Below, in pieces: positions 312 through 41,146 of a DNA stretch of 44,193 nt. A program made the position numbers and the translations under genes. Numbering within the stretch: position 1 is the first letter of the stretch; each line of letters begins with the position of its first letter. The notes beneath the pieces are model-generated. The model saw nothing but the letters and a program-made list of their open reading frames with translations. It was not told the origin of the DNA and searched no databases. The DNA is taken from positions 1-44,193 of the forward strand of contig JAFQFS010000105.1 of NCBI GenBank assembly GCA_017398585.1, given 5' to 3'. The DNA comes from Clostridia bacterium (GTDB taxonomy: Bacteria > Bacillota > Clostridia > Oscillospirales > CAG-272).

Positions 312-340
312 TTGACACCCTGTGGGAAGTGTGCTATAAT
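312..340 (+). promoter_or_regulatory. Sigma-A promoter of the T-box transcript
   Basis: A perfect consensus -35 TTGACA (312-317) is followed after 17 bp by a perfect -10 TATAAT (335-340). Transcription would start near 347, just before the T-box leader. Such a strong promoter suits a gene whose output is set by termination downstream. Confidence 0.9.
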
Positions 341-359: not shown

Positions 360-632
360 ATTGGATAAATGCGATGATGGGGAAAAACGAGCGGGAATCC
401 GTACAGAGAGCTGCCGGTTGGTGCAAGGCAGGAGGAGGAACGTTTAACACTCACCCCTAAGCAGCCGTTTGAAAGGGAATTTGCCCGAGTAGATGCGGAC
501 GGAACCCACCGTTAGAAGGGCAGGACATCATGTTGTGTCCGGGAGAGGGTATAGTTATACCGAAAAAGAGTGGTACCACGAGGTTTGTTCACCGCGTCTC
601 TTTGGGAGATTCGGTGGTTTTTTTATTTTGTC
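360..632 (+). promoter_or_regulatory. T-box leader, probably leucine-specific
   Basis: This is a tRNA-sensing transcription attenuator. Stem I shows the usual AGAGAGCTGCCGG and TTGGTGCAAGGCAG distal segments (about 409-440). The T-box itself (AGAGTGGTACCACG, 567-580) is close to the family consensus. AAAGAG (565-570) can pair with CTCTTT (598-603) to form the antiterminator. The competing terminator is CACCG...CGGTG with an inner TCTC/GAGA stem (590-617), followed by TTTTTTT. The best specifier candidate is CTC (450-452), directly before ACCCC, which reads leucine. The T-box UGGU expects an A discriminator base, as in tRNA-Leu, and argues against the nearby alternatives AAC (Asn) and CAC (His). 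That it is a T-box is seen directly; the leucine assignment is inferred. Confidence 0.9.
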
Positions 633-726
633 CGGTGATGTTCCGGATCACGGGGACGCCTGTGAGGACGGTACGCAGCCCTTTCCGATTATTTTGATAA
701 TGTATTTTAATGCAGGAGTAACGAAT

Positions 727-3261
727 ATGAAACTCTCATTCTCAACACTGGCTTGTCCCGGATATTCCTGGGCTGAAATTTATTCCACCGCAAAAGACTT
801 CGGCTTCCACGGCATCGAAATGCGCGGTCTCGGTGACGATATTTTCTCCGTTCACGCGTCTCCGTTCCTGCCGGAAAATCTTCCGGAAACCAAAGCGACT
901 CTCAAGCGTCTGAAGCTCGAAATCTGCTGCCTCTCTTCCGGCTGCGCGCTCAAGTATGCGGACCGTCATGCGGAAACCATTGAAGAACTCAAGGAATACA
1001 TCGCTCTTGCGAAGGAACTCGAAACGCCCTATATCCGTATCCTCGGCGACCGCAATGCGGAACCCGGCGAAGATTTCCCGGACGAATACGTTATTGAGCC
1101 GATGAAGATCCTCGCACCCATCGCAGAAGAAGCCGGCGTTACTCTCCTCATTGAAACCAACGGCGTTTACTCCGATACCGCACGTCTCGCCGACGTTCTT
1201 GCACGCATCGGCAGCGACAGCGTTGCCGCTCTCTGGGACTGGAACCATCCCTACCGCTTCAACGGCGAATCTCCCGAAACCACCATCAGGAATCTCGGCG
1301 CGTTCATCAAGCACTGCCACATCAAGGACTCTGTCATGGAAGACGGCAAGGTCAAGTACCGCCTCGTCGGAGAAGGCGACCTGCCGAAGATGGAAGAATA
1401 CATGAAGGCGCTCCGTTCCCTCAATTACGAAGGCTACATCTCCCTCGAATGGCTCCGCCAGTACGCACCGGAACTTTCCGAAGCCGGCATCGTTCTCCCG
1501 CATTACGTTCACTTCATGTCCCAGTATCTGGACGGCGGCAATGACAACATCCGTCTCCAGAAGAGCATCCGCGGTGACGGTTATTATGTATGGGAAAAGA
1601 ACCAGCTGATCGACCTTACCTTCCCGCAGGTTCTCGACCGCATGTGCGAAGAATTCCCGGATCAGTGGGCGTTCCGCTACACCGAAATGGATTACAGCCG
1701 TACCTACACCGAATTCCGTGATGACGTTGATACCTTTGCACGTGCACTCATCTCCATGGGGGTCAAGCAAGGCGACCACGTTGCGATCTGGGCGACCAAC
1801 GTGCCGCAGTGGTTCATCACTTTCTGGGCGACCGTCAAGATCGGCGCGGTTCTCGTTACCGTAAACACCGCGTACAAGATTCACGAAGCGGAATACCTGC
1901 TCCGCCAGTCCGACACCCACACGCTCGTTATGACCGACGGTTACAAGGATTCCGACTACGTTGCGATCATCAAGGAACTCGTTCCGGAACTGGAAAACAA
2001 CGACGAACTGAAGCCGATCCACAGCCGCAAGCTGCCGTTCCTGCGGAACATCATCACCTGCCAGTCGAAGCAGAAGGGCTGCTGGTCCTGGGACGAAGCG
2101 CTCGCAATGGCTGAAAAGACGCCCGTTGACGTCGTATACCGCAGAGCAGCAATGATCAACAAGCACGACGTCTGCAATATGCAGTACACCTCCGGTACCA
2201 CCGGATTCCCGAAGGGCGTTATGCTGACGCACTACAACATCATCAACGACGGCAAGTCGATCGGCGACCGCATGGATCTTTCCACGGCGGACCGCATGAT
2301 GATCCAGGTACCGATGTTCCACTGCTTCGGCATGGTACTGGCAATGACCGCATCCATGACGCACGGCGTTACCATGGCACCGATCACGGCGTTCTCCCCG
2401 AGAAAGGGTCTGTACTGCATCAACAAGGAAAAGATCACGGCGTTCCACGGCGTACCGACGATGTTCATCGCGATGCTCGGTCACGAAGACTTCCCGAAGA
2501 CGGACTTCAGCCACATGAGAACCGGTATCATGGCAGGTTCGCCCTGCCCGGTCAAGGTCATGGAAGAAGTCATCGAAAAGATGCACATGACGGAAATCAC
2601 GATCGTATACGGTCAGACGGAAGCGTCCCCCGGATGCACGCAGAGCTCAATTGACGACACCATCGAAACCCGTGTAAATACGGTCGGCCGTGCGTTCTAC
2701 GGTGTCGAATGCAAGATCGTTGACCCCGAAACCGGTGAAGACTGTCCGGACAACGTGGACGGCGAATTCGTCGCACGCGGTTACAACATCATGAAGGGCT
2801 ACTACAAGATGCCCGAAGCGACCGCAGCTGCGATCGACAAGGAAGGCTGGCTCCATACCGGCGACCTTGCGAGACGTCTCCCGGACGGAAACTACAAGAT
2901 CACGGGTCGAATCAAGGACATGATCATCCGCGGCGGCGAAAACATTTATCCGAAGGAAATCGAAGACTTCATTTACACCCACGAAAAGGTACAGGACGTT
3001 CAGGTCATCGGTGTCCCCGACAAGCAGTACGGCGAAGAAATCATGGCCTGCGTCATCAAGAAGCCCGATGTGGAATGTACCGCGGAAGAAATCAAGGAAT
3101 ACGTCATGTCCCATATGGCGAAACACAAGACCCCGAAGTATGTCGTCTTCGTCGACAGCTTCCCGATGAACGCTGCCGGCAAGATCCTGAAGTACAAAAT
3201 GCGCGAAGACGCAAAGAAGCTCCCCGAATTCCAGGAAGCTGCCGGGATCGTTACTGCCTGA
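727..3261 (+). CDS. Fused TIM-barrel sugar isomerase-like / acyl-CoA synthetase (AMP-binding) protein
   Basis: This 844-residue protein joins two enzymes in one frame. Residues 1 to about 275 are a xylose isomerase-like TIM barrel with the expected metal-ligand pattern in LLIETNG, LWDWNHP, HCHIKD and SLEW. Residues from about 295 onward are an ANL-family acyl-CoA synthetase: the AMP-binding loop YTSGTTGFPKG begins near residue 487, the hinge segment GRIKDMIIRGGENIYP near 727, and the catalytic lysine lies in AAGKILKYKM near 819. The synthetase resembles medium or long-chain fatty acid:CoA ligases and would make acyl-CoA from acid, ATP and CoA. The start is ATG 727; an in-frame start at 493 would lie inside the T-box and is rejected. 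Lysine is coded almost only by AAG, as in the ribosomal protein genes here, hinting at high expression. The substrate of neither half can be read from sequence. Confidence 0.85.
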   Translation: MKLSFSTLACPGYSWAEIYSTAKDFGFHGIEMRGLGDDIFSVHASPFLPENLPETKATLKRLKLEICCLSSGCALKYADRHAETIEELKEYIALAKELETPYIRILGDRNAEPGEDFPDEYVIEPMKILAPIAEEAGVTLLIETNGVYSDTARLADVLARIGSDSVAALWDWNHPYRFNGESPETTIRNLGAFIKHCHIKDSVMEDGKVKYRLVGEGDLPKMEEYMKALRSLNYEGYISLEWLRQYAPELSEAGIVLPHYVHFMSQYLDGGNDNIRLQKSIRGDGYYVWEKNQLIDLTFPQVLDRMCEEFPDQWAFRYTEMDYSRTYTEFRDDVDTFARALISMGVKQGDHVAIWATNVPQWFITFWATVKIGAVLVTVNTAYKIHEAEYLLRQSDTHTLVMTDGYKDSDYVAIIKELVPELENNDELKPIHSRKLPFLRNIITCQSKQKGCWSWDEALAMAEKTPVDVVYRRAAMINKHDVCNMQYTSGTTGFPKGVMLTHYNIINDGKSIGDRMDLSTADRMMIQVPMFHCFGMVLAMTASMTHGVTMAPITAFSPRKGLYCINKEKITAFHGVPTMFIAMLGHEDFPKTDFSHMRTGIMAGSPCPVKVMEEVIEKMHMTEITIVYGQTEASPGCTQSSIDDTIETRVNTVGRAFYGVECKIVDPETGEDCPDNVDGEFVARGYNIMKGYYKMPEATAAAIDKEGWLHTGDLARRLPDGNYKITGRIKDMIIRGGENIYPKEIEDFIYTHEKVQDVQVIGVPDKQYGEEIMACVIKKPDVECTAEEIKEYVMSHMAKHKTPKYVVFVDSFPMNAAGKILKYKMREDAKKLPEFQEAAGIVTA

Positions 3262-7867: not shown

Positions 7868-8019
7868 AAAAATTTCTCCTTCAAATGATAAAAATCCGGT
7901 ACCGTTGACCATAGTATACCGGAAAATCCCAGCAGAATCCACCGTTTGAATGGATGAAAAAATTCAACCGCAAGTTGTTTTCACACTGAGTCAGCACATA
8001 TTTTATCTTTTCCCATTTC

Positions 8020-8094
8020 AAAAAGGTTTTTGGAAGGGACGAGACTTCCGATGGAAGTCTCAGGGGAACCTTTTTCCTTAAAAAAGGTTCCCCC
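8020..8094. repeat. Dispersed palindromic element, copy 2 (two-hairpin form)
   Basis: The conserved head AAAAAGGTTTTTGGAAGGGA (8020-8039) is followed by hairpin 1, GAGACTTCC/GGAAGTCTC (8041-8061), and hairpin 2, GGGGAACCTTTTT/AAAAAGGTTCCCC (8064-8094). It lies directly downstream of the GH127 stop and can serve as its terminator. Confidence 0.8.
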
Positions 8095-8107
8095 ACGAAA
8101 CTATATT

Positions 8108-9961
8108 TTATCTGTAATTCATAAATACCAGCATGTTCGATTCTCCGCGGTTTGCGAAGGCGTAGTACGGGATCATGCTGATCTTTGCCGGAAGGAAGGT
8201 TTCTCCGACGACGTTGTCGAGCACGCCGTACAGCGGCGTGATGTCGCGGTCGATCGAGTCAATACGGCGGAATCCGTTGAACGTGATCGTCGGAACGCCG
8301 TATTTGTCGTTCAGTACCGCAACGCCGTCGTTCAGCGTGCGGCGGTCGAGGTACAGGCTGTGGACGTCGCCGTCGTTGTCGACCGCTTCCGCACAGTAGA
8401 TCACCGGACCGCGGCGGACGGCCGCACGGCCGATGTTCTTGTGTACGCCGACGGATGCGGTCAGCATGACCTGCATCATGTCGAATTCCACGTCGATCTC
8501 GCCTGCTTCGAACTTCGCGTATCCGTTGACCATTTCGTACTTCTTCGTCGCCATGAAGCGTCTGCACCAGCCCGGAATTCTTACGTAAACCGGTACATTG
8601 GAAGTGATCGCGATGTGACCGCTGTTCGGGTAGTTCGTCTTCTGTTCGACGCGTACGTCTCCGCAGACGAATTCACTGTCGCCGAACTGGTTGATGTACA
8701 CCACGTTCTTTTCTTCGTCGTAACCGTAGAAATAGTTGCCGAGGGACGCCAGCAGGCGGTTGATGTTCGGCGGGCAGCAGGAGCATCCGAACATGCGTAC
8801 ACGCTGTGTGATCGGAAGATGGTCGTAGCTGTTGAAATACGGAGGAACGCGTCCGCGGTCGGGCAGGTAGATTTCGAGCGGATTTTCGTAGAAGAAGCAT
8901 TCGCCGTCGAGGGACAGACCGGACAGCGCACCGTTGTACAGTTCGAGTTCCGCGATGTCCGCATACTTCGAGGACGGAACGCCGTTCAGCTTCGCGTCGA
9001 GAGCAAACATGCGGTTTGCGAAGAAGATCATGCCGATGGATGCGCAGGTTTCGGTATATGCGCGGTCGTTCGGAAGGTCGTACGCGATCGTGAACGCTTC
9101 GCCGATATGGGTCGAGCCGATGCCGCCGGTGACGTACATCTTCTTGTTCACGATGTCGTCGAACAGGGCGCTGCATGCCTTGGCGAGGGTGGTGTCGTTT
9201 GTTTCCAGCGCGAGGTCTGCCATACCGGAGTAGAGATAGGTCGCGCGGACGGAGTGACCGGTGGCTTCAAACTGTTCGCGGATCGGCAGATGGCTCTGCG
9301 CGTACATCTGGACACCGGCAATGGGAGTATCTTTTTCGTTTCTCGTGCCGCGGGTGTTGAGGAAGAACGCGCACAGATCCATAAATCTCTGTTCACCGGT
9401 CGTCCTGTACATGCGGTACAGCGCCAGTTCGATTTCCTCGTGACCGGGAGTCACGAACGCCGCGGAATCCTCGATCATGAAGCGCTTTGCGATGTAGTCC
9501 GCGTACTTTTCCATGATCTTCAGGAACCGGTCGCGTCCGGTCGCTTCGTAGTACGCGCATGCCGCTTCCATGAGGTGACCGGCGCAGTAGAGTTCGTGCC
9601 AGTCACGGTTGGTGAAGCGTGCTTCCGGCTTCACGACGGTGAAGTAGATGTTGAAATATCCGTCTTCGTCCTGATTTTTTTCGATCTCATCGATGAGGGC
9701 TTCGACTTTCTGTTCGAGGTCTTCGATGCGTTCGCGCTTCAGGATGTAGGCAGCGCCTTCCATCCACTTGGCGACGTCGGAGTCCCAGAAGAAGTGGGGC
9801 TGCTTGGGATCGCCGGCCTTCCATTCACACTTGAACGCGTCAATGCGTCCGGATTCGTCGAAACGGTCGTAGACCGCCTTGATGGTGACGTCGCGGTTGA
9901 GGTCTTCCTTGGATTTCCAGAAGCCGCCGCGCAGGGTCACGTTCCGATAGTCGGTAATCAT
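8108..9961 (-). CDS. Glycoside hydrolase family 127 protein (beta-L-arabinofuranosidase-like)
   Basis: The 617-residue product matches the GH127 (former DUF1680) family, whose characterised member HypBA1 releases beta-L-arabinofuranose using a zinc-bound cysteine nucleophile. Visible family features are the opening VTLRGGFW, the WHELYCAGHLMEAA segment, YTETCASIGM (general acid/base region), ELYNGALSGLSLDGECFFYENP, and GCSCCPPNINR near residues 389-399, where the adjacent cysteines provide zinc ligand and nucleophile. There is no signal peptide, so it should act in the cytoplasm on imported oligosaccharides. CAGGAGG precedes ATG 9961. It lies 48 bp after the phosphopantetheinyl transferase gene and may share its transcript. 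Family members also act on other substrates, so the exact sugar is uncertain. Confidence 0.9.
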   Translation of the reverse strand: MITDYRNVTLRGGFWKSKEDLNRDVTIKAVYDRFDESGRIDAFKCEWKAGDPKQPHFFWDSDVAKWMEGAAYILKRERIEDLEQKVEALIDEIEKNQDEDGYFNIYFTVVKPEARFTNRDWHELYCAGHLMEAACAYYEATGRDRFLKIMEKYADYIAKRFMIEDSAAFVTPGHEEIELALYRMYRTTGEQRFMDLCAFFLNTRGTRNEKDTPIAGVQMYAQSHLPIREQFEATGHSVRATYLYSGMADLALETNDTTLAKACSALFDDIVNKKMYVTGGIGSTHIGEAFTIAYDLPNDRAYTETCASIGMIFFANRMFALDAKLNGVPSSKYADIAELELYNGALSGLSLDGECFFYENPLEIYLPDRGRVPPYFNSYDHLPITQRVRMFGCSCCPPNINRLLASLGNYFYGYDEEKNVVYINQFGDSEFVCGDVRVEQKTNYPNSGHIAITSNVPVYVRIPGWCRRFMATKKYEMVNGYAKFEAGEIDVEFDMMQVMLTASVGVHKNIGRAAVRRGPVIYCAEAVDNDGDVHSLYLDRRTLNDGVAVLNDKYGVPTITFNGFRRIDSIDRDITPLYGVLDNVVGETFLPAKISMIPYYAFANRGESNMLVFMNYR

Positions 9962-40876: not shown

Positions 40877-41146
40877 ACTTGATGTGCGATGAAGCGGGAG
40901 GTTGCCATAGCATCAAATTGCCGGATGCTGTGGGTAATTTCCGTGGAGTATGTCCGAGTAAATCGGGCGAACCAAGACGCGCACAACGGAATGGCATCGG
41001 AACCCTGTCCCCGGCTTCGAACTGGGTGCTTAAGTTACTCGGCACCATGGTTTGAATCCGGAAAAATTCGGGGGAATGATGACACACCCGGAAGCGTGTT
41101 TGGCGCCTCACAACAAACTATCACAGCTTTTAAGGAGGCACACAAA
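40877..41146 (+). promoter_or_regulatory. Long structured leader of the S10 operon
   Basis: The 270-nt 5' untranslated region is GC-rich with several possible hairpins: AGCATC/GATGCT (40909-40929), ATCCGG-AAAA-TTCGGG around 41056-41072, and ACAC/GTGT around 41082-41099. It begins with the purine-rich GAAGCGGGAGGTTGC. No open frame has coding character: a frame in phase with rpsJ runs through it only by chance. An autogenous r-protein leader is likely, but I cannot name the ligand protein. Confidence 0.55.

Follow-up and report, generated by a model that had tools for sequence, protein, structure and literature searches.

T-box leader RNAs switch on the genes behind them when an amino acid is short, a state that they sense through its uncharged tRNA. 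Their usual targets are tRNA ligases and genes of amino-acid biosynthesis and transport; in the portions of one gene survey drawn on here these make up 62, 18 and 12%, with 8% that are of unknown function or have no apparent relation to amino acids, and 17 genes without such a relation are mentioned (PMC2494555). Branched volatile fatty acids have been known since the 1960s as rumen growth factors that are rebuilt into branched amino acids (Allison, cited in PMC7356843); the sections of that source used here give isovalerate as the precursor of leucine, 2-methylbutyrate of isoleucine, isobutyrate of valine and phenylacetate of phenylalanine, and discuss the carboxylation of isovalerate to leucine in the rumen, citing Allison and co-workers. 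We analysed a 44,193-nucleotide (nt) stretch of DNA, referred to as the window, from a Clostridia bacterium of the CAG-272 lineage (GCA_017398585.1, contig JAFQFS010000105.1), in which a leucine T-box stands before a gene that joins a TIM-barrel domain to an AMP-forming acyl-CoA ligase. We consider it likely that the ligase, under control of this T-box, activates isovalerate as the first step of a reductive-carboxylation route to leucine, a reading that builds on the leucine specificity of the leader, its conservation, the ligase family, the sister T-boxes and the link with LeuC and KARI absence, each of which is established at the level of sequence. The preliminary description of the locus had presented the gene as a target "instead of an amino-acid gene"; that wording is misleading, as the evidence points to a gene that would in effect be one of amino-acid biosynthesis.

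In its Stem I AGAGA motif, CUC specifier, UGGU antiterminator and terminator, the window leader resembles the leucine-type class I T-boxes (RF00230) of leuS, and it departs from the usual targets quoted above in leading to an acyl-CoA ligase. The acid and the amino acid proposed here are those of the rumen isovalerate carboxylation pathway, and relatives of the fusion include herbivore-gut sources; the rumen pathway is known as physiology, whereas the window and its relatives offer candidate activating genes and their regulation. A second comparison is with MbcS of Staphylococcus aureus, which activates 2-methylbutyrate and isobutyrate, disfavours isovalerate and serves lipids, according to the part of PMC10026030 consulted; MbcS is the nearest model to one isoleucine T-box ligase that we scanned, whereas the window ligase is nearest to PRK12583. 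Among the papers listed in searches of the open-access literature (main texts without supplements) we found none that connects T-boxes with CoA ligases for branched or aryl acids. The main text of PMC3766115 is without "CoA", "ferredoxin" and "oxidoreductase", that of PMC2494555 without "CoA" and "ferredoxin" as words, that of PMC7778990 without "CoA" and "oxidoreductase", and that of PMC7583486 without "ferredoxin" and "ligase".

A covariance search with Rfam confirmed that the leader belongs to the T-box family RF00230, with 95.2 bits against a gathering cut-off of 93 (model positions 1-219, E = 9.1e-20). The alignment places CUC in the specifier columns, and the specifier, UGGU bulge and terminator are all present, so that the preliminary description was right to call the leader complete, to give it a consensus promoter of its own and to run it into an acyl-CoA synthetase fusion. 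The promoter lies 5' of the start given there; promoter-like sites of any quality number two in the region, against 0.6 expected in shuffled sequences. The terminator hairpin at 589-617, followed by seven U, folds with -14.9 kcal/mol (z = -4.7, with 0 of 200 shuffles equally good); it was absent from the output of a simple pattern scan. The antiterminator by itself folds no better than shuffles (z = -0.5), which fits stabilisation by the tRNA, and the fold of the terminator together with its sequence overlap indicates the competition between the two structures that is characteristic of a T-box. Across 31 aligned leaders, chosen in part by the AGAGA motif itself, AGAGA and the first two specifier bases are unchanged.

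Features of the T-box leader and the fusion gene (positions in the window)
Feature	Position	Strand	Basis
Sigma-70 promoter, TTGACA-17-TATAAT	312-340	+	12/12 matches, 17-nt spacer
Class I T-box leader (RF00230), Stem I to antiterminator	365-604	+	Covariance score; leuS-leader identity
AGAGA, Stem I distal double T-loop	405-409	+	Sequence
Specifier CUC (Leu)	450-452	+	Rfam alignment
UGGU bulge, complementary to ACCA of tRNA-Leu (A73)	571-574	+	Rfam alignment, sequence
Intrinsic terminator hairpin and U-run, overlapping the antiterminator	589-624	+	Fold, sequence
Ribosome-binding site AGGAG	714-718	+	Sequence
Fusion gene, TIM-barrel metalloenzyme-like domain and AMP-forming acyl-CoA ligase, 844 residues	727-3261	+	Pfam
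PF01261 TIM-barrel domain, residues 22-245	790-1461	+	104.1 bits, above cut-off of 31.1
PF00501 AMP-binding domain, residues 304-693	1636-2805	+	308.2 bits
PF13193 AMP-binding C-terminal domain, residues 744-819	2956-3183	+	66.6 bits

The assembly of the window's genome, in 178 contigs and 73.6% complete, has 12 T-box matches including the window's own, and the leucine specificity of the leader was assessed against the rest. Specifier columns were compared in the Rfam alignments of the eleven others (ten shown, L012 not), with target names taken from translations read by eye, without a family scan. The same columns read CUC before leuS, AUC before ileS, ACC before a thrS, UGC before cysE, UGG before trpB, GUA 5' of a kinase-like gene followed by valS, and UUC 5' of a PheT-like protein. 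Because these leaders read codons matching their genes, the register of the window specifier is supported, and a different register is contradicted by the remaining T-boxes of the genome. For one of them (C76a) a first hand reading had taken a UAC further 3', and the Rfam alignment takes an earlier UAC, the same codon. The window leader and the genome's own leuS leader are identical at 206 of 237 aligned bases (87%). The genome contains two genes for tRNA-Leu(GAG), the cognate of CUC, identical across the stretches shown. Their discriminator, from an acceptor stem read by eye, is A (A73), the tRNA ends given by ARAGORN lying one base away from this reading; since a discriminator A gives an ACCA acceptor end, the UGGU bulge fits tRNA-Leu, and both contacts that had been assigned to leucine hold. 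At two loci of this genome (L013 and L018, contigs C90 and C87), uridine-kinase-like genes, again named by eye, lie between a Val T-box and valS and between a Phe T-box and the PheT-like gene, respectively.

To place the leader among relatives, a scan of titled genome records returned at least 592, and the best 80 of these, which are the closest relatives and no random sample, were used; they include Sporomusa acidovorans, 'Candidatus Formimonas warabiya', Anaerobacterium and many metagenome-assembled genomes from herbivore guts. A Stem I covariance model, R1, was built from 31 leaders (29 from loci of relatives, the window's and that of its own leuS) and applied to as much as 800 nt 5' of the fusion in the 78 loci whose upstream sequence was 500 nt or longer. 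Stem I was found upstream in 47 of the 78, 18 of them outside the training set, and all 47 specifiers are those of leucine (CTC 39, CTG 8). Leaders at the equivalent place include those of Sporomusa and Formimonas. The loss of a synthetase gene from between leader and fusion, which the preliminary description had named as a finding that would speak against its reading, was rejected: across the 47 loci the distance from the end of Stem I to the start of the fusion is 146-591 nt, so that there is no room for a synthetase gene, and nine loci hold a LeuA-like gene instead. By this comparison the window leader is a conserved leucine T-box and no lost-synthetase artefact. The predicted T-box control of the fusion is widespread, not universal. 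When RF00230 positions were compared with fusion-match positions in 36 relatives, at least 15 genomes had a T-box directly before the fusion, and in at least nine it stood before a unit of two genes, the second being the fusion. The fusion protein itself was matched at E<=1e-60 in 45 of the 59 genomes of the relatives set (some matches partial) and at E<=1e-200 in 109 of 293 genomes of a class sample, the window's own genome being counted in both; 83 of the 109 match both parts (some shortened) and 26 the ligase part only.

The N-terminus common to 19 aligned proteins sets the start of the fusion gene; an alternative start at 493, from the list of open reading frames, lies inside the leader, upstream of where the protein family begins. 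The motifs YTSGTTGFPKG and, near the C-terminus, AAGK, which we take to be the ligase loop and lysine motifs, are unchanged in the 19 proteins, and together with the PF00501 and PF13193 scores they place the protein among the AMP-forming acyl-CoA ligases. Its best NCBIfam model is PRK12583, a fatty acid CoA ligase, at 679.1 against a curated cut-off of 832, and it is not a member of that family. An antisense open reading frame of 614 residues overlies the gene (742-2586, minus strand); other genes of the genome are also overlain by long antisense frames, and this one is most likely an artefact of codon usage.

Ligases of related type stand behind T-boxes for other amino acids. Within the window's genome, AUC (C76) and GUA (C133) T-boxes precede fusions of XRE, cupin and AMP-ligase parts, and a UAC T-box (C76) precedes a 554-residue AMP-ligase. 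R1 was run on 30 loci obtained with an XRE-cupin ligase query, some of them without the XRE-cupin part, and gave 20 matches: 17 distinct upstream leaders, two repeats in overlapping loci and one match (GTC) that lies 3' of its ligase. The 17 leaders, directly 5' of XRE-cupin ligases, carry ATC in 11 cases, GTA in six and a leucine codon in none, as read by eye. Three are weak with R1 (E = 0.022, 0.15 and 0.26), the weakest being the C133 leader, which RF00230 matches too. The one XRE-cupin ligase with an Ile T-box that was scanned has MbcS as its best NCBIfam model (458.7 against a cut-off of 850) and is not a member. The preference of MbcS for 2-methylbutyrate and isobutyrate agrees with the finding that ligases of this type have leaders for isoleucine and valine and none for leucine. 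An XRE helix-turn-helix, a cupin and an AMP-ligase occur in one protein, behind an Ile or a Val T-box, at L014:358-2745 (minus strand), L020:1674-3989 and L060:7709-9976, an architecture taken from a Pfam scan for the L060 proteins and from similarity for L014 and L020.

The fusion was then set against the classical genes of leucine and branched-chain synthesis in 34 related genomes at least 90% complete, 21 with and 13 without it. These were left from 37 when the window's own, incomplete genome and two genomes with an unfused ligase only were dropped; of the latter, G036 has KARI and no LeuC above cut-off, and G040 has neither. LeuC passes the TIGR02086 cut-off in 3/21 genomes with the fusion against 12/13 without (p = 9.4e-6), KARI is present in 6/21 against 11/13 (p = 0.0039), and both are present in 2/21 against 11/13 (p = 1.8e-5). 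With the window's genus (six genomes) left out and one genome taken per genus, the figures for LeuC are 2/15 and 12/13 (p = 7e-5). At least three PF01558 matches were found in 16/21 genomes with the fusion and 0/13 without (p = 1e-5), a threshold picked after the counts had been seen; for at least two matches the counts are 18/21 and 6/13 (p = 0.02). KARI was detected in 14 of 14 control genomes. Some TIGR02086 match was found in all 14, and only seven pass the cut-off, so that it may miss some LeuC; the below-cut-off matches listed in the sample lie in frames of 643-846 residues, the size of an aconitase.

Taken together, these observations suggest the following route. Scarcity of leucine would be sensed by the T-box through leucyl-tRNA and would turn on the ligase, which would convert isovalerate, a branched acid from other gut microbes, into isovaleryl-CoA, a substrate to which the specifier and the genome context point. 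A 2-oxoacid:ferredoxin oxidoreductase of the VOR/IOR type would reductively carboxylate isovaleryl-CoA to 2-oxoisocaproate, from which a branched-chain aminotransferase would form leucine. An alternative leucine pathway would thus begin with the fusion gene, which would also be the leucine branch of a wider group; in this group MbcS-like ligases under Ile and Val T-boxes would serve 2-methylbutyrate and isobutyrate, and aryl acetates would be handled by a ligase or iorAB/paaK behind Tyr and Phe T-boxes.

Several observations pull the other way. No upstream Stem I was matched by R1 in 31 of the 78 loci, and four of these (L081, L084, L108 and L134), scanned whole with Rfam at E<=1, gave no T-box. 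The association tests ignore deeper phylogeny; two of the 21 fusion genomes (G008 and G035) carry both LeuC and KARI, and G033, which has LeuC and KARI and no fusion, has a ligase with an Ile T-box (L182). The window's genome retains a leuA-type synthase and, at 73.6% completeness, its missing KARI and LeuC are weak evidence. Linkage to later steps is rare: of 100 fusion loci, whose flanks are mostly about 6 kb or less, 3 have VOR subunits close by and 1 has ilvE. Finally, the isovalerate route leaves the TIM domain unexplained. Two adjoining genes of LeuA/homocitrate-synthase type lie at L211:5577-8869 (minus strand) of the window's genome, even though no LeuC in that genome scored above cut-off.

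The TIM domain is the basis of an alternative in which barrel and ligase would jointly handle a different acid or sugar-acid, one that supplies leucine synthesis through an undescribed route. The domain shares its fold family (PF01261) with hydroxypyruvate isomerase/tagatose epimerase-like barrels and differs from them in being joined to a ligase; a phmmer search with it gave a single, marginal match among PDB sequences, MJ1311 (E = 0.0046). Residues E143, D171, H174, H198 and E241, presumably the metal ligands of hydroxypyruvate-isomerase-like enzymes, are unchanged in all 19 aligned proteins, and the domain looks like one that retains its metal site. This conservation, and the fusion of the two parts in 83 of the 109 matching class-sample genomes when isovalerate activation requires no such domain, would be accounted for by another substrate. 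However, G058 has a ligase without the TIM domain that is also behind a Leu leader (L069, CUC read by eye), so that barrel and ligase need not share one chain; G058 encodes a separate homologue, 41% identical. The sister ligases scanned are also without the domain, and we regard this alternative as unlikely.

Also improbable, in our view, is a role in lipid synthesis, in which the ligase would make an isovaleryl-CoA primer for iso-branched membrane fatty acids and leucine shortage would switch on salvage of the free acid, leucine being the usual primer source. The nearest NCBIfam model, a fatty acid CoA ligase with a score under its cut-off, is in keeping with such a role, as is the support that MbcS gives to branched fatty-acid synthesis in S. 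aureus (PMC10026030, in the part consulted). It leaves unexplained, however, the Tyr and Phe T-boxes with iorAB/paaK, the scarcity of LeuC and KARI alongside the fusion, and the ilvE-like and VOR-like genes that lie clustered with it in G056, G049 and G034. A role in leucine catabolism, raised in the preliminary description beside a leucine-linked salvage step, or in branched-acid fermentation would be compatible with the general place of acyl-CoA ligases in acid degradation. It is very unlikely, because a T-box responds to uncharged tRNA and would turn the gene on when leucine is short, and because the fusion accompanies the absence of leucine synthesis genes; the salvage half of the preliminary proposal is supported. 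That a copy of the leuS leader landed by accident before an unrelated gene in this genome only, as its identity to that leader might suggest, is contradicted by the Leu leaders at the same place in 47 of the 78 loci, Sporomusa and Formimonas included, and can practically be dismissed.

Activation of isovalerate for leucine synthesis is further in keeping with gene order in some relatives. Contig C12 of G056 carries, in order, a Leu T-box, a LeuA-like gene and the fusion; an Ile T-box and an XRE-cupin ligase; a Val T-box and an XRE-cupin ligase; and then ilvE, a MinD-like protein and VOR subunits, named by eye, with similar clusters in G049 and G034. By-eye names also place a Phe (UUC) T-box before iorAB-paaK in G026 and a Tyr (UAC) T-box before a ligase, a transporter and iorAB-paaK in G034. 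At L168:635-5092 a Phe T-box (UUC) is followed by genes resembling iorAB, paaK and an ACT-domain protein; on the minus strand of L173 a Tyr T-box (7920-8162) is followed, as read by eye, by an AMP-ligase, a sodium-solute-symporter-like gene, iorAB and paaK.

The LeuA relative between T-box and fusion, of about 460 residues, was found in nine loci (L060:3534-4904 and the corresponding place in L061-L068). Eight of the nine, aligned with four full-length relatives, are without the DGEQ motif, the HxH pair, the NG.GERAGN stretch and the SGIH segment, the G049 protein retaining one His of the pair; we take the lost residues to be catalytic. The LeuA_dimer domain (PF08502) is retained, at 103-110 bits in the four scanned, and we infer that the degenerate LeuA may be a leucine-sensing regulatory subunit. 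More tentatively, and with rather less confidence than for the isovalerate ligase, we suggest a possible regulon of anaerobic gut Bacillota in which classical synthesis of Leu, Ile, Val, Tyr and Phe is replaced by ATP-dependent activation of the cognate carboxylic acids, scavenged from neighbouring microbes, each ligase being gated by a T-box for the amino acid that it serves. In one clade, a LeuA without its catalytic residues but with its leucine-binding domain, encoded in a unit with the leucine ligase, would confer leucine feedback on that ligase as a subunit. If so, substrate-activating ligases would join the known kinds of T-box targets. The T-box specifier would label each candidate acid:CoA ligase with the amino acid served, and for this reason the genes for acid dependence, and which gut bacteria use which acids, might be predicted from sequence. 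Elsewhere in the window, an S10-Clostridia ribosomal protein leader (RF03136) was found at 40880-40970 with 43.1 bits.

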